A stretch of DNA of 23,735 nt from a virus: positions 1 to 23,735 of IMG/VR virus record IMGVR_UViG_3300006874_000143. One strand, 5' to 3'. Below the pieces are notes generated by a model. That model had not been told where the DNA came from and did no database searches. It saw only the letters and a list, made by a program, of their open reading frames with translations. Each line of letters opens with the position of its first letter. The first letter of the stretch is position 1. A program made the translations under genes and the position numbers. Positions 8,983 to 23,371 of this stretch are shown piece after piece.

Positions 8983-8999
8983 ATATATAAATAGTTTAG

Positions 9000-11828: not shown

Positions 11829-11850
11829 ACTAAGTTTTATTATAAATAGA

Positions 11851-12555: not shown

Positions 12556-12841
12556 AATTTTCGGGGAGCATGTATCGGTTTAGCTCGTCTTGTACGTATT
12601 TCATTTGTTCAAAGAACTGACCTACTTCATCGTCAGATTGGAAAACACCTTTTTCATCTAACGTCTTTAAGTGTTCACTCCCCTCTCTAATAGAGTTAGA
12701 TATATTTTGAAGATATTTAGTTTGATCTTGTAATACGTCTTCATAGCGTTCTACTTTAAGTAAAAGGTTGCGAATGGCGTATAGTGATATAGCTATTAAT
12801 ATTCCTAATACTCCACTAATTATGTAACTTAGTTCTAACAT
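12530..12841 (-). CDS. Small membrane-anchored coiled-coil protein (103 aa)
   Basis: The 103-residue protein has one N-terminal transmembrane segment (about residues 5-25, LSYIISGVLGILIAISLYAI). A hydrophilic helical region with coiled-coil character follows (LLLKVERYEDVLQDQTKYLQ and on), with an acidic Gln-rich C-terminus. It probably sits in the inner membrane with the helix in the cytoplasm. Its start overlaps the radical SAM stop (TAATG), and its end overlaps the sigma factor gene. It could be a holin-like or membrane-remodelling factor, but nothing in the sequence settles that. Confidence 0.75.
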   Translation of the reverse strand: MLELSYIISGVLGILIAISLYAIRNLLLKVERYEDVLQDQTKYLQNISNSIREGSEHLKTLDEKGVFQSDDEVGQFFEQMKYVQDELNRYMLPENYGKEEKQS

Positions 12842-13992
12842 TATATAACTGTTTCTTTGGCGATTATTGCATCAAGTTCAGGCCAAAGCTCGTTAAATTT
12901 ATACTTTGTCTGATTATATTTTGATTCATGTCGCTCAATATATTGTCTAAAGTTTTTATCCGCTATATACCCTTCTGAGCCGTTCTGTATATGTTTAATA
13001 GATTCAGAAATAAAATCAGCGTTTAAGACCATATTAAGATTATTTTTCCTACTTTCCAACTTTTCAAGTATAAAGTTTCTAACTTTCTCGCTAAAGCATG
13101 CTGGATCTAATACTTCTGCATCGGATTTTATAGTTTGCCATAGAACCGGTACTTCTATTTGTTCTGAAAATGATAAAAATTTATCTATATCGTTAGCACT
13201 AAATAAATTAAAGACGGATAAGAAGGCATATGTATGTTCAGTTTCTGATTTTACTATGTCAAAATTTCTCTTTACGATATCCCAACTGCCTCCTTGTCTT
13301 ATATATTCAAACTGTTGACCTATATTCTCTAAGCTTGCCGTCCATTTTACATTCTTTCTTTTCCTTAATTTTTCAAATATTGATGATTTACTTAAATCAA
13401 CACTGAAGTTAGTAATAATATCTATTTTACAGTCTTGAGGTAATATGTCAAGGAGAGTGTTATTTTGTACCTGTACGAGGGGTTCACCACCTGCTATAAT
13501 AGCTTGCTCTATACTATCAGAGCCGTATTCTTTAATATAGTCAAGTATTTTATTAACTTTTTTTAAGTTTTCGGATTTGCTATAAGGAATACCTTTTAGT
13601 TTACTCCAAGTACTACTCCAATTTTCATCACAGTAGATGCAAGCAAAATTACATACTGTGCTCCATCTTAAATCAAGTGCTTTTAATTTAAATTTTTCCG
13701 GTTCTTCAGACTCTATAGTTCTGAACCAATCACGTTGGCTTGTACCTGACATTCTTTCGTCTCGAAGACATGTAGTGCAGAAACTGTCTAATTTACCATT
13801 TAGAATATTATTTCTCAACTCTTTTACACGAGGGGAGTTAACAATATAGTCTATAGTGGAGTTGTCTGTTATATCCCCAAATTTAAAAGTACCTGAGCAG
13901 CAAGAGGAAATATCGCCATTTGGACCTACAAATAGAGCAGATGATGGAGAGGTACAATAAAATGGCGACTCAAAAGATTTCGCCTGCTTCAT
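12841..13992 (-). CDS. Radical SAM protein, twitch-domain type (copy 1)
   Basis: The 383-residue protein carries the radical SAM cluster motif CNFACIYC (C114, C118, C121; CX3CX2C), which binds the [4Fe-4S] cluster that cleaves S-adenosylmethionine. It also has GGEP (168-171), which contacts the SAM amino group. Five further Cys precede the motif (C13, C31, C32, C72, C75), suggesting a second N-terminal metal or cluster site as in twitch/SPASM-like relatives. The substrate is unknown. It shares Cys layout with the radical SAM protein at 18117-19340. It lies inside the late structural block between an HD hydrolase and a membrane protein, with spacing of a few bases, so it is probably expressed with virion genes. 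Confidence 0.88.
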   Translation of the reverse strand: MKQAKSFESPFYCTSPSSALFVGPNGDISSCCSGTFKFGDITDNSTIDYIVNSPRVKELRNNILNGKLDSFCTTCLRDERMSGTSQRDWFRTIESEEPEKFKLKALDLRWSTVCNFACIYCDENWSSTWSKLKGIPYSKSENLKKVNKILDYIKEYGSDSIEQAIIAGGEPLVQVQNNTLLDILPQDCKIDIITNFSVDLSKSSIFEKLRKRKNVKWTASLENIGQQFEYIRQGGSWDIVKRNFDIVKSETEHTYAFLSVFNLFSANDIDKFLSFSEQIEVPVLWQTIKSDAEVLDPACFSEKVRNFILEKLESRKNNLNMVLNADFISESIKHIQNGSEGYIADKNFRQYIERHESKYNQTKYKFNELWPELDAIIAKETVI

Positions 13993-13995
13993 TTA

Positions 13996-14727
13996 TTAAA
14001 GGTTTTTCAAGATATTAGAAAGACCTTGAGAGGATTTTACGTTTTTTCCTGTAGTAGTAGCTGTTTTACTAACTTTAGGTGTAGAGTCACCTCCATTGTT
14101 TTTCCACATATCGTATTCAACTTTAGATGCGAGAAAATCGGCAGAGTGTAAAACAGAAATTAGACTTGTTTTTTGTCTTGATGATTCTTGATGACTAAAG
14201 AAATAAGATTCATTTGCTTTATCAAAAACACCATCGTGAAGACGAATACCTAAAAACTCTTTCTGTGAAACTTTTATACCAAACTTCTGTAGTATAAATA
14301 GAGAGCGATCCGGTATTAACATAAAATCGAGATCTGGGTTAAACGTGTACATCTCTGAGAGTTTATCTTGTCTCCATTTATCTGTCTGGGGTATATAGTT
14401 AGGTTTATCTCCGTCTCCAAGTTTACCAAGGTCATGGAATAATGCAGCAAAAACCAGTTCTTCTTGGGAATAGTCTATACTACCACCCATCTCTTCATAC
14501 AACCTTGACTGTTTTACTGCATACTCCACAACTCTATTCACGTGATCTACATACCCGCCAGGAAATGCACTATGATACCACGTTTTACCACTTGCAGGGG
14601 CCATAACATAAACCTCCTCCATATGTTCAAGCATAGAAAAAATACTATCTTTTCTTTCTCCAATATAAGTACTTATGATTTTTTTATGTTTTTCGAAATT
14701 AGATTGAATTTTCTCTGCTGTTAACAT
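13996..14727 (-). CDS. HD-domain phosphohydrolase
   Basis: The 243-residue protein shows the metal-binding pattern of HD hydrolases: H62 in GGYVDHVNRV, H98-D99 in LFHDLGK, H164-D165 in RLHDG and D197 in LHSADFLA. H52 and H194 lie nearby. HD proteins cleave phosphoesters such as nucleotides, dNTPs or cyclic dinucleotides using divalent metals. Phage versions may act on nucleotide pools or host second messengers, and the substrate here cannot be read. The C-terminus (from ~205) is Lys/Ser/Thr-rich and probably disordered. It is the first gene of the minus-strand block, with a TATAAATA octamer 66 bases upstream. Confidence 0.88.
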   Translation of the reverse strand: MLTAEKIQSNFEKHKKIISTYIGERKDSIFSMLEHMEEVYVMAPASGKTWYHSAFPGGYVDHVNRVVEYAVKQSRLYEEMGGSIDYSQEELVFAALFHDLGKLGDGDKPNYIPQTDKWRQDKLSEMYTFNPDLDFMLIPDRSLFILQKFGIKVSQKEFLGIRLHDGVFDKANESYFFSHQESSRQKTSLISVLHSADFLASKVEYDMWKNNGGDSTPKVSKTATTTGKNVKSSQGLSNILKNL

Positions 14728-14862: not shown

Positions 14863-15447
14863 TTATTCCAAGATTATTTTCAAGTTATTAAAAACTTTAT
14901 ACTTAGAAGCACTTCCTGCCTCCCAAAAAACCTCGGGCTCTATATAGATTGTATCTCCTTGCATCTCTGGAGGGATAGGCCCTACAATACGCTTACCTAC
15001 CATTCGAGTGGAAGTTTCTTGAGATAAGTAAATTCTGGTAGGTTGAACTACCGGGAGTATATCATTCTGAAACTCCCATGTATTTTCCGTAAAAAAAGAA
15101 GCTTGAACTACAGGAACATCGTTATACCACCACCAAGGATCTGTAGGGTTGGCGTTTATAAAGATATTAAATCTTGGATAGTATTGAGAATTATAGTCTA
15201 AATCTACATGGTAGTACCCATTAGTATCTAACCATCCATCTACTTCAAATGTAGCATTACACTCACCTCCGTAGCAAGTAGGAGGATTTAATTCCTCTTC
15301 TATAGAGCAAGAAACAAGTAATAACGCAAGAATGAGAGCTGCAAGATGAGGTAAGATATCAACCCCATGAAGCTTCCACATCATAGCAACTATTCTAAGT
15401 TGGAAAGCAAGAACAAAGAAACAAATAATAATAGCAATATACAACAT
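14863..15447 (-). CDS. Predicted surface lipoprotein with two hydrophobic segments (194 aa)
   Basis: The start at 15447 (MLYIAIIICFFVLAF) is chosen because a host-type promoter ends 18 bases upstream. A longer frame from 15540 would run through that promoter. Residues 2-24 form a transmembrane segment. A second hydrophobic stretch, LPHLAALILALLLVSC (32-47), ends in a lipobox-like LVSC, and after C47 comes S-I-E-E-E. In flavobacteria, Ser followed by acidic residues just after the lipidated Cys is a surface-export signal. An internal start at residue 22 or 23 would give a standard lipoprotein signal peptide. The rest is a beta-rich, Trp/Tyr-rich domain with two Cys near its start (CYGGEC). Superinfection exclusion is one possible role. 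The family is not identified. Confidence 0.72.
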   Translation of the reverse strand: MLYIAIIICFFVLAFQLRIVAMMWKLHGVDILPHLAALILALLLVSCSIEEELNPPTCYGGECNATFEVDGWLDTNGYYHVDLDYNSQYYPRFNIFINANPTDPWWWYNDVPVVQASFFTENTWEFQNDILPVVQPTRIYLSQETSTRMVGKRIVGPIPPEMQGDTIYIEPEVFWEAGSASKYKVFNNLKIILE

Positions 15448-15465
15448 AACCTTGATTTTTATACT

Positions 15466-15496
15466 TAAATATAAGAAGAAAAACTCGGAGAGGCAA
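15466..15496 (-). promoter_or_regulatory. Host-type (Bacteroidota) promoter for the lipoprotein gene
   Basis: On the minus strand TTG (15496-15494) is followed by 20 bases and TATATTTA (15473-15466). This fits the Bacteroidota -33 TTG/-7 TANNTTTG layout. The same spacing and near-identical -7 boxes occur at three other sites in the window. The predicted transcript starts about 14 bases before the ATG at 15447. Confidence 0.7.
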
Positions 15497-15553: not shown

Positions 15554-16423
15554 TTACTTTTTAACTTTATCTATAGTCTTTCTTTCGTAAGCTTTATTAA
15601 GATAATCTAAAAGATTATTTTGATCCAACCATACATTTCCATCCAGTAAACATTCATAAGCAGCCTTACCTATTAAATGGTGACCGAATTCATTCCAATG
15701 CCCACAATGACAGTGAGCCTCTTGATGGAGATACCCGGCATTTACATACTTTTTCTTCTTAACCTCTACTTTTAATTCCTCCCATAGTCTATTATGAAGT
15801 ACTACCGTACTCACTCCTTTATGATGTAACAGGTTAACGGTAAGGTTCATTAGATTGGTATAGTAGTTATTGTAGTTATTCCACTTGGGGGCCACTACAT
15901 GTAAGAAGAAGTTTCTGATACCTTTTTCTATATTGTCTATAGGCTGGCCTACCCATGTACCTTCTTGGTGTAAACGCCAATCATCATTATCGAGATCAAG
16001 CATCTCTGGACCAGTAAGTGATTTAAGAGTGGGGTACCATAGGTCCGACTCTGTAAACTCCTTGATCAAAGGTAGCTTAGTACCATCTACTACTCTATCA
16101 AATGGAAGTAAAGTTCTTTCAGGAGTTGTGTAAGTAAGGATAGCTACATCTCCTCTACGCATCTTTGAGTAATGCTTCATAACCATTGATACTACATCTA
16201 AGTTACTACAGCCCGGATAACCGAATCTTTGCACATTATTTTTAGACTCGACAGAATCCTTTAATGACTCAGCATAAGTATACTCTACTATTCTATACGG
16301 GTTTGGATTTCCTTCAGAATCCGCTAACTCTTGATCCCAACACAGACCCGCAGCAAACGAATCTCCTATTGACCAAACAGTATTAAAGCGAACTTGCTCT
16401 TTTTCTTGGATGGGCTTTTTCAT
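15554..16423 (-). CDS. SGNH/GDSL-type hydrolase (copy 1, 289 aa)
   Basis: The N-terminus VWSIGDSFAAG (residues 16-26) is block I of the SGNH family, with S22 as the predicted nucleophile. A block II-like YPGCSN follows at about 69-74, and the C-terminal HWNEFGHH (242-249) supplies a His in the position of block V. SGNH enzymes remove or transfer acyl groups from carbohydrates, lipids or peptides. The segment between is larger than in minimal SGNH proteins and rich in Trp and Tyr. There is no signal peptide, so it acts in the cytoplasm or on the virion. The start overlaps the preceding gene by 41 bases, and the next in-frame ATG would remove block I, so the overlap looks genuine. Confidence 0.8.
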   Translation of the reverse strand: MKKPIQEKEQVRFNTVWSIGDSFAAGLCWDQELADSEGNPNPYRIVEYTYAESLKDSVESKNNVQRFGYPGCSNLDVVSMVMKHYSKMRRGDVAILTYTTPERTLLPFDRVVDGTKLPLIKEFTESDLWYPTLKSLTGPEMLDLDNDDWRLHQEGTWVGQPIDNIEKGIRNFFLHVVAPKWNNYNNYYTNLMNLTVNLLHHKGVSTVVLHNRLWEELKVEVKKKKYVNAGYLHQEAHCHCGHWNEFGHHLIGKAAYECLLDGNVWLDQNNLLDYLNKAYERKTIDKVKK

Positions 16424-16847
16424 ATAACTCTTCTACAGGCTTTAATAGTAAGTCTTGAAATCTTTTAATAACAGCACACTTCTCATATTGCTCTAAACTT
16501 TCATAATATTTAAGCATATAATCTAAAGATACGAAACATTGTCCTTTTTCGAAACTTTCTCCCACTTTATATATACTATCAAAATGCTTACTATCTATTT
16601 TCTCTAAGTAAGAATATAGTTTATTAAAGTATTTGTACTTAATTGCTTTTCTAACGTTTTTATACTGCTCTGGATACTGTCTAAGATACATCATATCCAT
16701 CATATGGTAATTATCCACTCCTCTAACAGTCATTCCCATTAATACATAAGGATTCTTAAGAGCATCATCTACTCCATGCTCTCTATAGATTTGCTCATCT
16801 CCTTGTTCAAAGATTGCAAATAGCGTGTTAGGATCCAAGTATTGCAT
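16383..16847 (-). CDS. Phage protein of unknown function (154 aa)
   Basis: The 154-residue protein is helical and rich in Tyr, Met and charged residues. Its C-terminal part (MLKYYESLEQYEKCAVIKRF and on, residues ~110-136) resembles the helical hairpin seen in UvrB/UvrC-like motifs (YE.CA.IK). It has no catalytic motif or signal. It lies between the SPASM-type radical SAM gene and SGNH copy 1, 16 bases after the former, and overlaps the latter by 41 bases. This suggests one transcript and possibly a partner or adaptor role. The function is unknown. Confidence 0.72.
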   Translation of the reverse strand: MQYLDPNTLFAIFEQGDEQIYREHGVDDALKNPYVLMGMTVRGVDNYHMMDMMYLRQYPEQYKNVRKAIKYKYFNKLYSYLEKIDSKHFDSIYKVGESFEKGQCFVSLDYMLKYYESLEQYEKCAVIKRFQDLLLKPVEELYEKAHPRKRASSL

Positions 16848-16863
16848 TTCTAATAAATAGATA

Positions 16864-18060
16864 CTATATGACCTTTGCAGATTTTAACTTTTTATAAGCC
16901 TGTATATCTTTATCTAACCCGTTTCTTATACCGCAAACCATACTACATTGTATAGACCTACCACACTCATGAGTAGTATTCCACTTAGAAGCAACCTGCC
17001 GATCCAGTATCTCCATGATACGGTAAAAACTATTATTCTGTAACTTAAGCTCTTCATATGGAAGTATTTGAGCTTGCTGATTATATATACTTTCATTATA
17101 CTTTCTCTTAACCTCAGCACCCATATAACAGCACGGCAGAATCATTCCCTGAGCAGAAATATATAGATCCGATAAAGTACCTCCGGTAAATCTATCAGGC
17201 TTAACCATTTTACATTTAATATCGTATTTCTCCGCCTCCAAGAAAGCAGGTGTTTGATAGTCTATTTCACTCCCATATGTTCCCTCTGCATCCTCCTCAG
17301 TAAAACTCAACGGCGACGGCACACCATAACCAAGATCAACCTCCCAATCTTTCCAACGATGCATATCAGCAAGCTGTAACGAGTACTCCGCATTACCATC
17401 TTTATCTCTAACCCAAAACGGACCATGTTTTTTATTAAACATGTCATCCATACCATTAGGCCTTTTAAAAACTATTGTATCTATACCAAACTTTGCTGCT
17501 AACTCTCTTGCAGGTAAAGTCTGGTGCTGGTTATGTTTAAACACTAAATACTCCCATTGCGTACTACGACCATACTCCTTCGCTCCCCTTGCACACTCTC
17601 TCATATTAGCAACTAATTTATCCCACCTTACATTTCTTCTATATAGATGATTAGTATCCTGTAATCCATCTACACTAAAAACTGTTAAAGTTACTAATCT
17701 GCCCACATCAAACCAGAACTGAGTATCTCTCGGCCCACCGTTAGTCCTCATAACAATAGGAGCAAAATGACCAGTAGAGTTACCTCTAATATACTCAAGT
17801 ATTTTGATAAAATCTGGATTCATTGCAGGATCGCCAAAATTACCACAAAAGCTATACTGCCCGACTTTATTAAGGATGTCGTACGGGAACCATTCTACAA
17901 ATTGTTCATAAGATATATTATCTTGCTGTAGCTTAGGATGAAGCTTTGTACTACCTAAATAATGACGAGGACAGACTGGGCATTTAGCATTACAGTAAGA
18001 AGATATTTCAAAATCTAAACCCCATTTAAGATCGTGACCTTCGAAAGGTGTTGTCCACAT
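16864..18060 (-). CDS. Radical SAM protein with SPASM-type C-terminus
   Basis: The 398-residue protein has CNAKCPVCPRH at residues 23-33 (C23, C27, C30), the [4Fe-4S]/SAM site. In place of GGEP it has CGNFGDPAMNP (72-82), a form seen in several SPASM-type radical SAM proteins. C-terminal Cys form a SPASM-like set: C283, a G-X4-C element (G305-C310) with C311, and C-X5-C-X3-C (C366, C372, C376). These would hold auxiliary clusters. SPASM enzymes usually modify peptides or proteins, but no precursor peptide is evident next to it. It heads a minus-strand unit with the 154-residue protein and SGNH copy 1, with TATAAATA 27 bases upstream and AAGGA just before the ATG. Confidence 0.88.
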   Translation of the reverse strand: MWTTPFEGHDLKWGLDFEISSYCNAKCPVCPRHYLGSTKLHPKLQQDNISYEQFVEWFPYDILNKVGQYSFCGNFGDPAMNPDFIKILEYIRGNSTGHFAPIVMRTNGGPRDTQFWFDVGRLVTLTVFSVDGLQDTNHLYRRNVRWDKLVANMRECARGAKEYGRSTQWEYLVFKHNQHQTLPARELAAKFGIDTIVFKRPNGMDDMFNKKHGPFWVRDKDGNAEYSLQLADMHRWKDWEVDLGYGVPSPLSFTEEDAEGTYGSEIDYQTPAFLEAEKYDIKCKMVKPDRFTGGTLSDLYISAQGMILPCCYMGAEVKRKYNESIYNQQAQILPYEELKLQNNSFYRIMEILDRQVASKWNTTHECGRSIQCSMVCGIRNGLDKDIQAYKKLKSAKVI

Positions 18061-18087
18061 TTCCTTTTTAAATAAATATCTATCAAC

Positions 18088-18095
18088 TATTTATA
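18088..18095 (-). promoter_or_regulatory. Late promoter (TATAAATA) for the SPASM radical SAM operon
   Basis: The minus strand reads exactly TATAAATA 27 bases before the ATG at 18060, in the 56-base gap between two divergent radical SAM genes. No TTG-N20-TATNTTWA site is present in this gap. For the opposite gene the plus strand has AATAAATA (18071-18078), one mismatch to the octamer and 38 bases before its ATG. Confidence 0.55.
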
Positions 18096-18116
18096 TATAA
18101 AGTCAAATAAGTTTTA

Positions 18117-19340
18117 ATGGCACATCCAAGTAAGACAATCTGTCCTCTCCCCTTTAGTAGTATATCTTACAGCATGACAGGGGAAATGGGACCCTGTACT
18201 CAATGTAATAAACTAACCGAATACCAGACTATTGAAGAGTACTGGGAATCACCTCAAGTTAAGAAGCTTCAAGACGACATGAAAGCAGGCATCAGAAACT
18301 CTGCCTGTAATGAATGTTATAATAGACAAGATGCCGGAGCTTGGAATACTCGAGAATGGTTATTAGAACAGATGCCTGAATATGATTATAACGAAGACCC
18401 TAAATTAAAAATGTTATGGTTAAGATTCAGTAACATATGTAACTATAAATGTATAGACTGTAACCCAACTACGTCTTCTCTTATATTTCAAGAGATGTTA
18501 AAAAGAGGAGTAATAGATCCTAACCGTAGTGCAGTAATACACTCAGGAGGAGACGAACACCATCTCTTAGAGCAAGTAAAAAAACACGTACACAACCTAC
18601 AACAGATAAGTTTTTCAGGAGGAGAACCACTACTACACTGGCAGCACTGGGATGCTTTAGAGTATATTGTACAACAAGGGATATTTCCTACTATTAGATA
18701 CTTTACTAACTTAAGTATTCTTTCATATAGAAAGAAAAGCTTAATAGAACTATGGAGTCATTTCCCTAAAGTAACTGCAAACGTTGGTTTTGATGCTATG
18801 GGAGAAGGGTGTAACTACTTTAGAGGTAATATGAGTTTCGAGAAAACAGTAGCTAACTGTGATAAAGTTATAGAAGCCTTGCCACAAACAGAAATCATAG
18901 TAACTGTTACTTTTACCTGGCTTAATGCTATTAATGCTATTGATATGATACTATGGTTTATGGAAAATAGGCCAAACTTAATAATATCCCCCAATCAAGT
19001 AATACATAGATACTTAGACCTACGTACTGCACCGTTAAGTAAGAAAAGACAAATAGAAAAAGCTATTTTAAAAGTTTTAAACCACGACGCTACAAGAAAT
19101 GACGGTAATATGTACAAATTTTACTCAGGAATGATAAAGTTAATGTACAGTAACGACTTTTCAAGTGAGTTTCCTGCAGCATTAAAGTGGTTGAGAGACA
19201 TGGATAAGTGGAGACAGACTGATTTTAGAGTAGTATTCCCCGAACATCAAGACATAGTGTACGAAGATTACGATGTAGATAACGTTGAAACTGCAAGCGA
19301 ACACCTAATTATGGATTATCTCCCAGTTGGAGACCAGTAA
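18117..19340 (+). CDS. Radical SAM protein, twitch-domain type (copy 2)
   Basis: The 407-residue protein has CNYKCIDC (C108, C112, C115) as the SAM-cleaving cluster motif and SGGEP (167-171). Upstream Cys are C9, C27, C30, C64 and C67. This layout parallels copy 1 at 12841-13992: a lone Cys, a Cys pair near 30, CX2C near 65-75, the cluster near 110, GGEP at 168. The two are therefore probably paralogues. The substrate is unknown. It is transcribed away from the SPASM-type gene, with no Shine-Dalgarno but an A/T-rich leader. Its 3' end overlaps the convergent SGNH copy 2 by 32 bases, tail to tail. Confidence 0.88.
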   Translation: MAHPSKTICPLPFSSISYSMTGEMGPCTQCNKLTEYQTIEEYWESPQVKKLQDDMKAGIRNSACNECYNRQDAGAWNTREWLLEQMPEYDYNEDPKLKMLWLRFSNICNYKCIDCNPTTSSLIFQEMLKRGVIDPNRSAVIHSGGDEHHLLEQVKKHVHNLQQISFSGGEPLLHWQHWDALEYIVQQGIFPTIRYFTNLSILSYRKKSLIELWSHFPKVTANVGFDAMGEGCNYFRGNMSFEKTVANCDKVIEALPQTEIIVTVTFTWLNAINAIDMILWFMENRPNLIISPNQVIHRYLDLRTAPLSKKRQIEKAILKVLNHDATRNDGNMYKFYSGMIKLMYSNDFSSEFPAALKWLRDMDKWRQTDFRVVFPEHQDIVYEDYDVDNVETASEHLIMDYLPVGDQ

Positions 19341-19992
19341 ATTGACCGTAATCAGTAGTTTTTATAAATTCTAACAGTTTTTTAGCAAAAATTTCATGAT
19401 ATTCTTGAGTCCAATGCTGGCAGCTTGTTTGGTACTTCTCATTCGGGTACCATAACTCAGGAGTCCACCAGTAAAACTTAGTTCCTCTCTCTCGAAATAT
19501 ATCTTCCCAATACATCACCCATGTTTCATAGTAATGTTCATAATGGTGTCTATAAGGTCTTATTATATTTTCATGAAATTCTATAACTTTTTCATTAATT
19601 CTTGCACCTTCCTCTTTTGTTACGTGCGGTAAATAATGATCCTTTATATATTTTCCATCAATATCAAGATGACCAGCCGCCAAACCTGTTAAAGTCCCGT
19701 ATTCACCCTGTCTGTTATGAAAATTATTAAAAGAATACTGGTGTTTTGTAGGAAACGGTATGCGGATCGGTGTAGTACACCCTAAAATTACAATATCATC
19801 TTCAGAAATTTTAGTAAAGTAACGCGTCATAGCCATGAAAATGTCATTCATAGTGCTACCATAATGAGCTATTTTACTATGATGCTGTGCTAAATAAGAA
19901 GCTATTATATCTCCATAGGTAAAATCAACAAAATTACCTGGTAAATCAGCATTACACCCCTGTGTAAAACTATCTCCAAAAGTCCAAACCAT
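19309..19992 (-). CDS. SGNH/GDSL-type hydrolase (copy 2, 227 aa)
   Basis: The protein begins directly with block I, MVWTFGDSFTQG, so S8 is the predicted nucleophile. YGSTMND (44-50) fits block II, and CQHWTQEYHE (191-200) carries the likely block V His (H193). Its size is close to that of a minimal SGNH domain. Aromatic and His residues are abundant (YRHHYEHYYETW), as in copy 1. It is preceded directly by SGNH copy 3, with the stop and start sharing one base. The 3' end overlaps the convergent radical SAM gene. Confidence 0.8.
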   Translation of the reverse strand: MVWTFGDSFTQGCNADLPGNFVDFTYGDIIASYLAQHHSKIAHYGSTMNDIFMAMTRYFTKISEDDIVILGCTTPIRIPFPTKHQYSFNNFHNRQGEYGTLTGLAAGHLDIDGKYIKDHYLPHVTKEEGARINEKVIEFHENIIRPYRHHYEHYYETWVMYWEDIFRERGTKFYWWTPELWYPNEKYQTSCQHWTQEYHEIFAKKLLEFIKTTDYGQFTGLQLGDNP

Positions 19993-20891
19993 TATTTTCT
20001 TTTAGTATTTCCTACTTCCCACGCCATTTTAAAGAAATCAAAGACTTCAGGGTCGTATACTTTTTTATTTTCAATCATTTCTATAAACCTTAACCCTATA
20101 AACTCCTGTTGAAAAGGAGAACAGTGAGAAAAATCCCGTGCATGTACAGGAATAACAGCCGGATCTTCCCAAAACGCTACCGGCAACGTTGTATTTACAT
20201 AAAGATTCATATCAAACCTATCACAGACAGCTTTAATAGCATCTAACTGTGACCTCATTAACCAAAACGTAGATCTATCTGAGAATAATAAGTCGTTTAA
20301 CATGCCTACTATACCTTTAAACTCTCCAGGCACATACCCAGGCAGTCCAACAGCCGTTAAAGGATTCCACTTCTGAGAATCTTGTCCGTAAAACTCCCAC
20401 CTGTAAAAATGAGGTATTAACAAACAAACACTTTTAGCTTTTAATCTTCTTTCTTTCTGCGTCCAAAGTACTAAGTTCCTATATGCTGTCTGTATACCCA
20501 TCCCACCAATAGCTAAGTTCCACGCCTTTAATCCATAGTGGTTAACAACATAACTAACCCATGTCTGATACCAGTGCAACGCCACACCAGCAGTATGAGA
20601 ACAACCTAAAAAGATAATTCCCTCATCGGTAGTATTAAAATCATCTGGAGTTCTAAAGTTATAGTTATTAAACTCGTATTCTATAGGATTATTCTCCCAC
20701 CACTCAATATCAGGATGATCTTTATGTAGTTGTTTATTTTGCTCCCAACGCTCAGGATTATCCGTACCCAGCCATTTCCCCTTATAGTTTCTTATATCCT
20801 TAAGGTAGTAGTCTATTTCATTACCCTTTAAGTCGTAAAACTCCTTTACTTCTTTAACCTTATAGAAGTTTCTGTCAGTCGGCTTCCGCAT
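19992..20891 (-). CDS. SGNH-type hydrolase, GCSHT variant (copy 3, 299 aa)
   Basis: The 299-residue protein has a ~90-residue N-terminal region rich in Asn, Trp and Tyr, then FLGCSHTAGVAL (94-105). In that block I variant GCSxT replaces GDSx, and S98 is the predicted nucleophile. NLAIGGMG (125-132) is block II-like, and ARDFSHCS (251-258) gives the D253/H256 pair of block V. The combination of nucleophile, Gly turn and Asp-Xaa-Xaa-His supports an active enzyme. It is the first gene of a minus-strand pair with copy 2 and is divergent from the sulfotransferase. Its N-terminal extension is unlike the other three copies and may bind substrate or partner. Confidence 0.8.
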   Translation of the reverse strand: MRKPTDRNFYKVKEVKEFYDLKGNEIDYYLKDIRNYKGKWLGTDNPERWEQNKQLHKDHPDIEWWENNPIEYEFNNYNFRTPDDFNTTDEGIIFLGCSHTAGVALHWYQTWVSYVVNHYGLKAWNLAIGGMGIQTAYRNLVLWTQKERRLKAKSVCLLIPHFYRWEFYGQDSQKWNPLTAVGLPGYVPGEFKGIVGMLNDLLFSDRSTFWLMRSQLDAIKAVCDRFDMNLYVNTTLPVAFWEDPAVIPVHARDFSHCSPFQQEFIGLRFIEMIENKKVYDPEVFDFFKMAWEVGNTKRK

Positions 20892-20902
20892 CTATGTTTT
20901 TC

Positions 20903-20910
20903 TATAAATA
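20903..20910 (+). promoter_or_regulatory. Late promoter (TATAAATA) for the sulfotransferase
   Basis: The plus strand reads exactly TATAAATA 43 bases before the ATG at 20954, in the 62-base divergent gap. A TATATTTA (20922-20929) with TTT, not TTG, 20 bases upstream also lies here and could serve as a weak host-type site. Confidence 0.5.
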
Positions 20911-20923
20911 TTAACTCTCTTTA

Positions 20924-20931
20924 TATTTATC
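20924..20931 (-). promoter_or_regulatory. Late promoter-like octamer (GATAAATA) for SGNH copy 3
   Basis: The minus strand reads GATAAATA, one mismatch to the T4 late octamer, 32 bases before the ATG at 20891. It mirrors the exact octamer on the other strand of the same gap, so the gap may be a bidirectional late promoter. Confidence 0.4.
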
Positions 20932-20953
20932 ATAGTAAGCAAATTAAAAATAA

Positions 20954-21532
20954 ATGACGGTTTTAATATTAGCTGAACCAAGAAGCGGTTCTACACACTT
21001 AGCAGGGTATTTAAGATTCTGTGGCTTTTATACTTTTTATGAACCATTCAATAAGCTCTCACAATTTTTCTTTCCAGAGATTGAAACCTGCCAAGGTTTA
21101 GACCATCATATAGGTAAAAAAATACTTGTTAAGGAATTATTCTGGGGAAGCGCAGCAGGTTCTAATATTCATAAGTTTGATTATCAAAAATTTATCAGTA
21201 GATTTGATTATACTATTTTCTTGCATAGAGGTAATTTTGAGGAACAAGTTAGTTCTTATGATTTCTGTAATGCTAACAACGTACATTTACAGAAACCTTA
21301 CTCTATACCCCGTGATTATAAATCCTCAGAGCTAAGTCTACTGTTATTTCAGCAGCTAAAAGACGAATTTAAAGAACTTAGAGCTAACCATACACAAGGA
21401 CGTTACATTGATATAAGTTATGAAGAATTATATCAGTTTAAAAAGATTGATTTAATATTTGAGTTCCTTGGGATAGAGAAACCCTTAGGGGTTACTTGGC
21501 CGTATGCAAACAGGTTGAGGAGGATTGTCTAA
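20954..21532 (+). CDS. Sulfotransferase-family protein
   Basis: The 192-residue protein starts MTVLILAEPRSGSTHLAGYL. The PRSGST segment (9-14) is the 5'-phosphosulfate-binding loop of PAPS-dependent sulfotransferases. FLHRGNFEEQVSSY (89-102) fits the 3'-phosphate-binding block, with R92 and S100/S101, and the early YEPFN (29-33) is also typical. It would transfer sulfate from PAPS to a hydroxyl or amine on a sugar, peptide or lipid. It is shorter than most family members, with a compact C-terminal half. It lies in the accessory island between SGNH copies. The leader is A-rich without a Shine-Dalgarno. Confidence 0.85.
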   Translation: MTVLILAEPRSGSTHLAGYLRFCGFYTFYEPFNKLSQFFFPEIETCQGLDHHIGKKILVKELFWGSAAGSNIHKFDYQKFISRFDYTIFLHRGNFEEQVSSYDFCNANNVHLQKPYSIPRDYKSSELSLLLFQQLKDEFKELRANHTQGRYIDISYEELYQFKKIDLIFEFLGIEKPLGVTWPYANRLRRIV

Positions 21533-21547
21533 AACCCCCTTACGCGC

Positions 21548-21569
21548 GAAATTTTTCCGCAAAATTTTC
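21548..21569. repeat. Inverted repeat after the sulfotransferase gene
   Basis: AAATTTT and AAAATTT are separated by five bases (TCCGC), just after a short GC-rich stretch (ACGCGCG) and within 40 bases of the sulfotransferase stop. It could act as a transcription stop or a protein site before the next promoter. Confidence 0.35.
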
Positions 21570-21579
21570 CCCACATTTC

Positions 21580-21610
21580 TTGTTTTTCCACCAAAAAGTT
21601 CTTATATTAA
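21580..21610 (+). promoter_or_regulatory. Host-type (Bacteroidota) promoter for the Kazal-like protein gene
   Basis: TTG (21580-21582), 20 bases, then TATATTAA (21603-21610), with the ATG only three bases later at 21614. Transcription would start at about the ATG, giving a leaderless or nearly leaderless mRNA. The CTTATATT context is shared with the site upstream of 23317. Confidence 0.68.
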
Positions 21611-21613
21611 AGT

Positions 21614-22003
21614 ATGAGTCAAAGCTTTATAATTAGCGCCGTAGTATTTCTCATTGTAATGGTTACCTTTCACTTGATAAAGGATATTATTATAAGAGGA
21701 CACAATATAACTCCAGATATGAGGAGTAAGATAAATAATAGATGGCTTGTAAGTACGGCTATCGGGCTGATATTACTGTTTTTCTTTTACGGATGTGTTA
21801 CTGAAGTAGATATATGTAATAAAGGCGAGCCTAATAACGGTGTTACATGTATAGAGATATATCAACCGGTAAGAGCACCAGATGGTACCATATATAGTAA
21901 TTCATGCTTAGCAGAAGCTGATGGATGGGATAATGGTTGTTTAGAATTAGAACCAGTATATAGTAAGTATGACTCCAAACAGATACTTATTACTACAGGA
22001 TAA
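21614..22003 (+). CDS. Kazal-like membrane protein or lipoprotein (129 aa)
   Basis: The protein has a first transmembrane segment at about residues 5-25 and a second hydrophobic stretch (45-60) ending FFFYGC, with C61 in a lipobox-like position. After it come CIEIYQPVRAPDGTIYSNSC (79-98) and a GW turn. This matches the core of Kazal/follistatin-type domains (C..IY.PV...DG..YSN.C.A...G), with C68, C79, C98 and C109 as possible disulfide partners. The usual Cys after PV is replaced by Arg, so inhibitory activity is uncertain. Kazal domains inhibit serine proteases or bind partners outside the cytoplasm. The membrane layout parallels the lipoprotein at 14863-15447. The 3' end overlaps SGNH copy 4 by 35 bases. 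Confidence 0.75.
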   Translation: MSQSFIISAVVFLIVMVTFHLIKDIIIRGHNITPDMRSKINNRWLVSTAIGLILLFFFYGCVTEVDICNKGEPNNGVTCIEIYQPVRAPDGTIYSNSCLAEADGWDNGCLELEPVYSKYDSKQILITTG

Positions 22004-22652
22004 GAAGCTTCTTGTTAATAGCCCTTCGGTATTTAGTATATTAGGGTACCTGAATGGCTTTGATAAGGATATATGCTGGATTTTTGGTGATAGTTTTATG
22101 GATACACCGGCAAACTACATTCTCCACTATCTTGAAAAGTACAATAAAAGAGGAATAATATTAAGTAGAGGCGGTACTGGGGTTGATTATTCGTATCTAA
22201 GATTTCTTGAAGTAGAAAAATATATTAAGCCTTACCATTCTATGCTTGTTGGTATTAGTGCTGTATCAAGGTTTTATTGGAATGATTATCATATAAATTC
22301 TACAGGAAAGATTAGACCTAAAAATAATAATCAAGAACCCACAAGTAGATTTAAAAAAGCCGTTGAACTATTCTTCTTAGAGCTTTATAATGATGAAGAT
22401 CAAATCCAACTCAAAAGCGCTATAGTAGATACGTTTGTGCGAAGAGTTAGGGATAGAGTAGAAAAAGCCATTATAATACCCACAATACATCCATATGACG
22501 TGTTAGGTAATATTCCCAGTATGATGTCTATCCTCTCTCAATGGTATAAAGACGATACACTACCTCCAGGTAATAACCATTGGCCGGATGATAGGCAATT
22601 TAGTGATAACTTCTATAAGTACTACGATAGTACATTTGAGGTATGGTCTTAA
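21969..22652 (+). CDS. SGNH-type hydrolase (copy 4, 227 aa)
   Basis: Block I is ICWIFGDSFMDTP (35-47), with S42 as nucleophile. GGTGVDYSYLR (68-78) gives the block II Gly/Asp region, and NNHWPDDRQFSDNFYKYY (202-219) holds the block V His (H204). It differs greatly from the other three copies outside these blocks. The start at 21969 overlaps the Kazal-like gene by 35 bases and is the only ATG before block I, so the two genes are probably translated from the same transcript. The C-terminus ends shortly after block V, as usual for the fold. Confidence 0.77.
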   Translation: MTPNRYLLLQDKKLLVNSPSVFSILGYLNGFDKDICWIFGDSFMDTPANYILHYLEKYNKRGIILSRGGTGVDYSYLRFLEVEKYIKPYHSMLVGISAVSRFYWNDYHINSTGKIRPKNNNQEPTSRFKKAVELFFLELYNDEDQIQLKSAIVDTFVRRVRDRVEKAIIIPTIHPYDVLGNIPSMMSILSQWYKDDTLPPGNNHWPDDRQFSDNFYKYYDSTFEVWS

Positions 22653-22678
22653 TATATAAATATATAAATATATATAAC
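22651..22678 (+). promoter_or_regulatory. Tandem late promoter octamers in AT repeat
   Basis: Two exact TATAAATA octamers stand head to tail at 22655-22662 and 22663-22670, both reading toward the non-coding region downstream. They begin at the stop codon of SGNH copy 4, so no following protein gene explains them. The AT-only 8-base repeat also makes chance possible. Confidence 0.45.
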
Positions 22679-22690
22679 CTATATCACGAA

Positions 22691-22812
22691 AGTTAGCCGG
22701 GAGAGGGAAATTAGATAGGCCGCAGCCACGACCACGAGCCCACTATAGGGAACTATACCGGCAGTGTTATGGCAAGGTGACCTAAAGGTGACATCCTCCT
22801 GACCAAATCTTT
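22691..22812 (+). ncRNA. Candidate structured RNA of unknown family
   Basis: This stretch is much richer in G and C than the neighbouring gaps and lacks an ORF. GCCGG (22696-22700) can pair with CCGGC (22758-22762). Inside, TATAG (22744-22748) pairs with CTATA (22753-22757) across a GGAA loop of GNRA type, directly stacked on the closing stem. GGC-CGCA-GCC can form a further small hairpin near 22718. Two GGTGAC hexamers follow (22776-22798). Tandem late-promoter octamers precede it. It matches no RNA family that I recognise, and it is not a tRNA. It could be a small RNA or a long terminator between convergent units. Confidence 0.4.
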
Positions 22813-22823
22813 ATATGGGATGG

Positions 22824-22854
22824 TTGGTAGTTCGAAATAAATTTCTTATCTTTA
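22824..22854 (+). promoter_or_regulatory. Host-type promoter inside the non-coding region
   Basis: TTG (22824-22826), 20 bases, then TATCTTTA (22847-22854). The start of the spacer (GGTTGGTAGTT) is identical to that of the promoter of the 101-residue gene at 23341-23371. Transcription would begin near 22860 and run toward the 3' end of that gene. Confidence 0.6.
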
Positions 22855-22859
22855 TGATT

Positions 22860-22961
22860 ATGTTTTATAAAGGCCATATGATGTTATCTTCTTATCCTGC
22901 CCACCTATCTTCTTATGGGCAATATATGGCTATATGTTTACCAGGCAATACTAACCGATAG
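22860..22961 (+). CDS. Possible leaderless small ORF (33 aa)
   Basis: The ORF has 34 codons including stop and starts MFYKGHMMLSSYPAHLSSYG. Its ATG falls at the expected transcription start of the host-type promoter just upstream. That is the same arrangement as for the Kazal-like gene. The frame is open upstream to an ATG at 22815 (48 residues in all), but the promoter lies within that extension, so the shorter form is preferred. It contains two SSY units, encoded by an 11-base direct repeat. No homology is recognised, and it could be an untranslated RNA. Confidence 0.3.
   Translation: MFYKGHMMLSSYPAHLSSYGQYMAICLPGNTNR
22885..22920. repeat. 11-base direct repeat with overlapping hairpin
   Basis: TATCTTCTTAT occurs at 22885-22895 and again at 22906-22916, a spacing of 21 bases (two helical turns). 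GCCCA (22899-22903) can pair with TGGGC (22916-22920), enclosing most of the second copy. This could be an operator, a transcript hairpin, or a coding repeat of the small ORF. Confidence 0.4.
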
Positions 22962-23011
22962 AAGGGCCAATAGTGTAATAGAGTCTATAAGGCTATATAT
23001 GGCTGGTACTA

Positions 23012-23340: not shown

Positions 23341-23371
23341 TAAATATAAGAACTTTCTACCAAACTACCAA
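23341..23371 (-). promoter_or_regulatory. Host-type promoter for the 101-residue protein gene
   Basis: On the minus strand TTG (23371-23369), 20 bases, then TATATTTA (23348-23341), 24 bases before the ATG at 23317. The predicted leader is about 20 bases and A/T-rich. Confidence 0.7.

Follow-up and report, generated by a model that had tools for sequence, protein, structure and literature searches.

A variable cargo region with radical SAM, SGNH-type and sulfotransferase-like genes in an Immutovirus-like phage, and its possible role in glycan tailoring

Genes at the locus

We analysed an incomplete virus fragment of 23,735 bases (IMG/VR record IMGVR_UViG_3300006874_000143; the whole stretch is called the window) and, within it, the interval 15554–22652, an island of genes for radical S-adenosylmethionine (SAM) enzymes, SGNH-type proteins and a sulfotransferase-like protein. 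The left half of the window holds baseplate genes, gp6- and gp25-like by their PHROG matches, and on these matches the name 'T4-like', used in a preliminary description of this DNA, holds in a loose sense. To the right of the baseplate the gene order is rSAM0, HD, u225, SGNH1, u154, rSAM1, rSAM2, SGNH2, SGNH3, ST, u129, SGNH4, u101; these names, like u103, are labels coined in this analysis. The cargo genes are:

rSAM0: 12841–13992, minus strand, predicted N-terminal-twitch/SPASM radical SAM enzyme between HD and u103, outside 15554–22652 (NF033640 191.6 bits; PF04055 1.1e-9)
SGNH1: 15554–16423, minus strand, SGNH-type, esterase-like, in the u154|u225 slot (GDSF and GHW; profile link to SGNH2)
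rSAM1: 16864–18060, minus strand, predicted radical SAM enzyme, SPASM-like Cys at the C-terminal end (CNAKCPVC; VFKHNQHQ and the C-terminal Cys are invariant in the family)
rSAM2: 18117–19340, plus strand, predicted N-terminal-twitch radical SAM enzyme, divergent from rSAM1 (NF033640 252.9 bits; CNYKCIDC)
SGNH2: 19309–19992, minus strand, SGNH-type, esterase-like (Lipase_GDSL 9e-4; relatives in L115, L116 and L122)
SGNH3: 19992–20891, minus strand, SGNH-type with GCSHT and ARDxxH (alignment; hhalign to the SGNH1/2 family 98%, 1.7e-13)
ST: 20954–21532, plus strand, sulfotransferase-like protein (PF13469 7.4e-5, under cut-off; PRSGST)
SGNH4: 21969–22652, plus strand, GDSF protein paired with u129 (GDSF/NHW; 39–41% to L086/L129; hhalign to the SGNH family 63%, 7e-5)

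All of these frames are open, and the genes agree with the preliminary description, which had listed four divergent SGNH hydrolases, two radical SAM enzymes with a third outside the island, and one sulfotransferase at these places. L-numbers denote related contigs or loci, in which gene calls were made mechanically.

Among cultured phages the nearest is Flavobacterium phage vB_FspM_immuto (Immutovirus immuto, NC_055915), with 57% identity in the HD protein and 56% in gp6. These core proteins mark the virus, which is marine and uncultured, as a relative of Immutovirus immuto, and by analogy with that phage its host is most likely a member of the Bacteroidota. Among phage records no near-DNA relatives of the window were found. 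Contig L083 is identical to it over gp6 and the neighbouring baseplate genes and ends short of the island, and a search of the related contigs found no near relative of the island itself.

Radical SAM, SGNH-type and sulfotransferase-like proteins

Profile matches place all three rSAM proteins firmly among the radical SAM enzymes (Pfam/NCBIfam E-values 1.9e-5 for rSAM1, 5e-75 for rSAM2 and 2e-56 for rSAM0), and each has the CX3CX2C cluster motif (CNAKCPVC, CNYKCIDC and CNFACIYC, respectively), which is invariant across the rSAM1 family. NF033640, the NCBIfam model N_Twi_rSAM, has a curated cut-off of 170 bits that rSAM2 and rSAM0 pass. By contrast rSAM1 falls below it at 51.6 bits, matching over the radical SAM core only, and the family alignment sets it apart as a family separate from N_Twi_rSAM. 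The two enzymes of the island are of different subtypes, as had been proposed. Relatives of rSAM1 were found at 208 viral loci, the best at 35% identity; a query of viral contigs with rSAM2 returned none.

Direct Pfam support for the SGNH assignments is weak and concerns SGNH2 only (E 9e-4). Iterated profiles started from either SGNH2 or SGNH3 recovered all four proteins, and an alignment of 22 family members has G6, S8 and H193 invariant, that is, a G-x-S motif and a C-terminal His; the assignment of SGNH4 is the least certain of the four. The family profile matches solved carbohydrate esterases of family 2 (2wao, 5e-6). For the structure model of SGNH2 (mean predicted local distance difference test score, pLDDT, 84), the top PDB matches in Foldseek are SGNH carbohydrate acetylesterases, individually weak (E 2.5e-3, TM 0.3–0.4) and consistent in kind, and matches among viral models, including SGNH-annotated ones, run from E 3e-7 on. 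Profile and model resemble carbohydrate acetylesterases, and this activity is a prediction. The active-site motifs, described earlier as intact, are so in their core in every cargo protein, but SGNH2 lacks the canonical Asp three residues before the His as well as the GxND block III, reading SCQH and GCTTPIR, whereas ARDxxH is kept in SGNH3. Not every SGNH copy need therefore be an active hydrolase.

The ratio of nonsynonymous to synonymous substitution rates (dN/dS) in SGNH pairs of relatives ranges from 0.20 to 0.93, the top value belonging to a pair whose dS is near 0.02. In view of the open frames, the motifs and dN/dS below 1, decay of the island genes was rejected. Recent duplication of the SGNH genes was also rejected, as SGNH2, SGNH3 and SGNH4 are nearer to SGNH proteins of other phages (31–41%) than to each other. 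A search of viral contigs for the SGNH2 subfamily found 6 loci, and queries of these contigs with SGNH1 and SGNH3 found no relatives.

ST misses the curated cut-off of PF13469 (23.5 bits vs 27). It has both the 5' and the 3' motif for binding the sulfate donor 3'-phosphoadenosine-5'-phosphosulfate (PAPS), PRSGST and R92...S100/S101, in common with genes of the radical SAM arrays described below (L070, L015 and others). We call it sulfotransferase-like, with PAPS dependence putative; its query against viral contigs returned no relatives.

A fixed frame with exchangeable cargo

The cargo of the island is hypervariable, with exchangeable genes in preferred slots. In a comparison sample of about 100 related contigs, in which 90 loci with HD form 54 clusters at 95% identity, a fixed frame of u101, u129, u154, u225, HD and u103 is kept and the genes between vary. 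Frame genes in and around the island are:

HD: 13996–14727, minus strand, conserved HD-domain phosphohydrolase (at least 600 viral loci, the best 80 at 78–86% identity; 57% in immuto)
u225: 14863–15450, minus strand, lipoprotein-like (open reading frame from 15540, likely start near 15450; conserved in 65 loci; lipobox LLVSC)
u154: 16383–16847, minus strand, no function given (conserved in 56 loci)
u129: 21614–22003, plus strand, membrane/lipoprotein-like (conserved in 13 loci)

The usual occupant of the slot between u154 and u225 is a T5orf172-type gene, from a family with 47 loci; SGNH1 occupies the slot in the window, an SGNH gene does so in 7 of 43 loci, and homologues of SGNH1 at 21–29% identity are found there in L170, L173 and L174. 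HD and u103 lie no more than 50 nt apart in 85 of 88 relatives, the slot between them being empty in most; it contains rSAM0 in the window and an SGNH gene in L124, so that both kinds of cargo use one slot. The pairing of SGNH4 with u129 recurs in L086/L129. Nineteen SGNH genes were counted in 169 kb upstream of HD, compared with none in 290 kb on the structural side.

Cargo genes were counted over 40 dereplicated relatives (HD/gp6 loci). SGNH genes occur in 11 of these, with one to three genes each and two or three in 6 of the 11 positive clusters; radical SAM genes occur in a single cluster (L134, adjoining a QueC-like gene), and a recognisable sulfotransferase in 0 of the 40. Close kin therefore do not share the set. 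Further cargo of these regions comprises a glycosyltransferase of family 25, PhyH, short-chain dehydrogenase/reductase, QueC, methyltransferases, a thioesterase and AAA proteins. One Immutovirus-like contig also has, judged by eye, a 930-residue glycine-dehydrogenase-like protein within its cargo region (L145:1728-4520).

The preliminary description had pictured a packed island of 7 kb beside the baseplate genes. Its location is as described, but the core phage genes u154 and u129 lie within 15554–22652 and interrupt the cargo, and the island, which switches strand several times, is not one operon.

Upstream motifs and lipoprotein-like frame genes

The motif CTATTTAT stands 4–13 nt ahead of the starts of gp146, gp122 and u154, at 8987–8994(-), 11842–11849(-) and 16853–16860(-). 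It is kept in related loci ahead of gp146 (57/59), gp122 (76/84) and u154 (24/53) and is absent before other core genes; a further copy, at 18087–18094(+), is 22 nt ahead of rSAM2. It seems too near the start codon for an ordinary promoter. A TTCTTATATT-type motif, a candidate second promoter class, occurs ahead of u225, u129 and u101, at 15467–15478(-), 21598–21609(+) and 23342–23353(-), and of 32 unassigned genes of relatives. A scan for sigma-type promoters gave no more sites than shuffled sequences.

Both u225 (LLVSC) and u129 (LLFFFYGC) look like lipoproteins. Phage lipoproteins can block superinfection, and as lipoproteins the two would fit a surface theme. A Kazal domain match in u129 reached E 0.04 only and is not claimed.

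The same gene kinds in distant phages and bacteria

Many relatives of rSAM1 sit in arrays of 4–10 radical SAM genes. Among 45 dereplicated loci, the rSAM1-type gene directly adjoins a twitch-type one in 19 (in the window the pair is divergent), SGNH genes are present in 11 and sulfotransferase-type frames in 6. Radical SAM, SGNH and sulfotransferase-like genes are interleaved in overlapping frames in L015, L017 and L024 (for example rSAM-rSAM-ST-rSAM-SGNH-rSAM-rSAM), and downstream in L015 lie an NAD-sugar epimerase, a DegT aminotransferase, a second epimerase and a C-methyltransferase. The array viruses have no HD, and seven of the array records searched show only a 23–28% stretch of gp6; by these measures they are distant from the window virus.

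Four marine virus contigs (L012, L020, L066 and L069) carry 8–10 radical SAM genes in mostly overlapping frames. Bacterial homologues of rSAM1, many in Bdellovibrionota and related assemblies, also form arrays (L205, L211, L216, L223, L226), and the commonest Pfam family beside the bacterial homologues is glycosyltransferase family 2 (8 of 108 genes scanned).

Interpretation

We read the interval as a variable cargo region of an Immutovirus-like phage whose present cargo most likely serves glycan tailoring, a reading to which we give an even chance of being right. The radical SAM enzymes would modify a sugar or a carrier bearing one, the sulfotransferase would transfer sulfate from PAPS, and the SGNH proteins would take off O-acyl groups or pass them on; the outcome would be a changed host envelope polysaccharide that affects the adsorption of competing phages. 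The carbohydrate substrate, the host surface as target, the benefit through superinfection exclusion and the joint action of these proteins in the window phage are what we infer. By eye, the SGNH and ST proteins have no signal peptide, and action in the cytoplasm would therefore be expected, on nucleotide sugars, lipid-linked intermediates or proteins. Elsewhere, operons of the same gene kinds adjoin nucleotide-sugar genes, and a glycan pathway is favoured for that reason.

The preliminary description had argued for a functioning pathway as opposed to decay, and had proposed to look for co-occurrence of the genes. The absence of decay stands, but in the window phage the pathway itself is not shown, the genes forming no set in its kin. 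Their positions are nonetheless non-random, and the set does occur in the three array loci with interleaved genes. The evidence supports a joint pathway as a theme that recurs among other marine phages; for the window's own phage group it gives no such support.

Several observations weigh against glycan tailoring in the window phage. Its full gene set was found in no relative, and no glycosyltransferase or nucleotide-sugar gene is present in the window. The closest relative of rSAM1 (L005, 35%) is solitary in a replication module with DNA polymerase, gp32, exonuclease and DnaB, and in 26 of the 45 rSAM1-type loci an adjoining twitch-type gene is missing. L010, L015, L017 and L024 have arrays that look homologous and so are not independent cases. 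Within array loci, SGNH genes adjoin radical SAM genes no more often than after shuffling (7 observed, 5.9 expected), a null result due in part to radical SAM genes filling much of these loci. The structure model of ST reaches a pLDDT of 33 only, leaving its fold unconfirmed. Finally, SPASM/twitch radical SAM enzymes often have peptide substrates, an architecture typical of peptide maturases.

This last point favours protein or peptide modification, in which the substrate of the radical SAM enzymes would be a structural protein of the phage, from its fibre or baseplate, or a peptide of the host, and SGNH and ST would act on the same protein. Several models of maturases of ribosomally synthesized and post-translationally modified peptides match relatives of rSAM1, and the island adjoins baseplate genes. 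A precursor has no space in the island, however, where gaps are at most about 115 bp, and 22653–23011 holds no convincing open reading frame; a local precursor is thus unlikely, and in the peptide alternative raised earlier the peptide or protein substrate may be encoded elsewhere. With nucleotide-sugar genes as the partners in array viruses, and SGNH proteins resembling carbohydrate esterases, we consider this explanation rather unlikely.

We place at the same level a mosaic of unrelated cargo, in which the genes arrived separately and have separate small roles (nucleotide metabolism, lipid or thioester hydrolysis, host takeover) in no common pathway. The lack of a conserved set in kin, the strand switches, SGNH genes without radical SAM genes in most relatives, the solitary rSAM1 relative in a replication module and the thioesterase and AAA proteins among other cargo all suit such a mosaic, which fits the window phage at least as well as a single functioning pathway. 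Against it, SGNH genes are enriched and often multiple, and the same three gene kinds share overlapping operons elsewhere.

A broader version of glycan tailoring would make radical SAM, SGNH and sulfotransferase genes the modules of a dedicated pathway, common to distant marine myoviruses and building a radically rearranged, sulfated and acyl-edited surface glycan on infected cells, with a reduced, rebuilt version in the window; we regard this as unlikely. Decoration of the virion, with the enzymes modifying glycans on tail fibres and so changing adsorption, has the nearby baseplate genes in its favour and is very improbable, given that this neighbourhood varies throughout the family and also takes up unrelated cargo, and that the window has no glycosyltransferase.

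That phages alter host surfaces is already known; as far as we found, none has been demonstrated to do so by radical SAM and sulfotransferase chemistry, and a literature search for the combination of radical SAM, SGNH and sulfotransferase genes found nothing. The reason for many phage radical SAM genes has been a question since the genomes of Campylobacter phages (PMC2853527). If the arrays make modified glycans, this would account for up to ten radical SAM genes in some marine phages, and the arrays would be a source of new sugar-modifying enzymes. The analysis of slots offers a concrete route to testing which cargo genes act together.

Comparison with known systems

Around HD, the baseplate and u154, the genes of immuto follow the order seen in the window (u154-like, T5orf172 gene, u225-like, HD, u103-like, baseplate). 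Immuto differs in having the T5orf172 gene where the window has SGNH1, and in that stretch no radical SAM, SGNH or sulfotransferase gene is annotated. The marine myovirus arrays (L010, L012, L015, L017, L020 and L024) resemble the island in bringing radical SAM, SGNH and sulfotransferase-like genes together, with the exceptions that no sulfotransferase was seen in L012 and L020 and no SGNH gene was detected in L010; unlike the island they are long single-strand operons, with no HD and, in the records that match gp6 at all, with the limited stretch given above.

In the Campylobacter phages CP220 and CPt10, five radical SAM genes form a block that is interchangeable, and CP220 has two sugar-transferase-fold genes nearby (PMC2853527). 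Here the partner is an amidinotransferase, no SGNH or sulfotransferase gene is annotated, and the authors proposed metabolic fitness (PMC2853527). The host-recognition cluster of pelagimyophages belongs to another lineage with a SAR11 host, and sulfotransferases are unmentioned in the text of that paper (PMC7029224). This cluster is hypervariable in T4-like marine phages, its sugar genes are read as modifying the host O-chain against co-infection, and two related phages differ by radical SAM cassettes, a precedent for such cassettes in a hypervariable region (PMC7029224).

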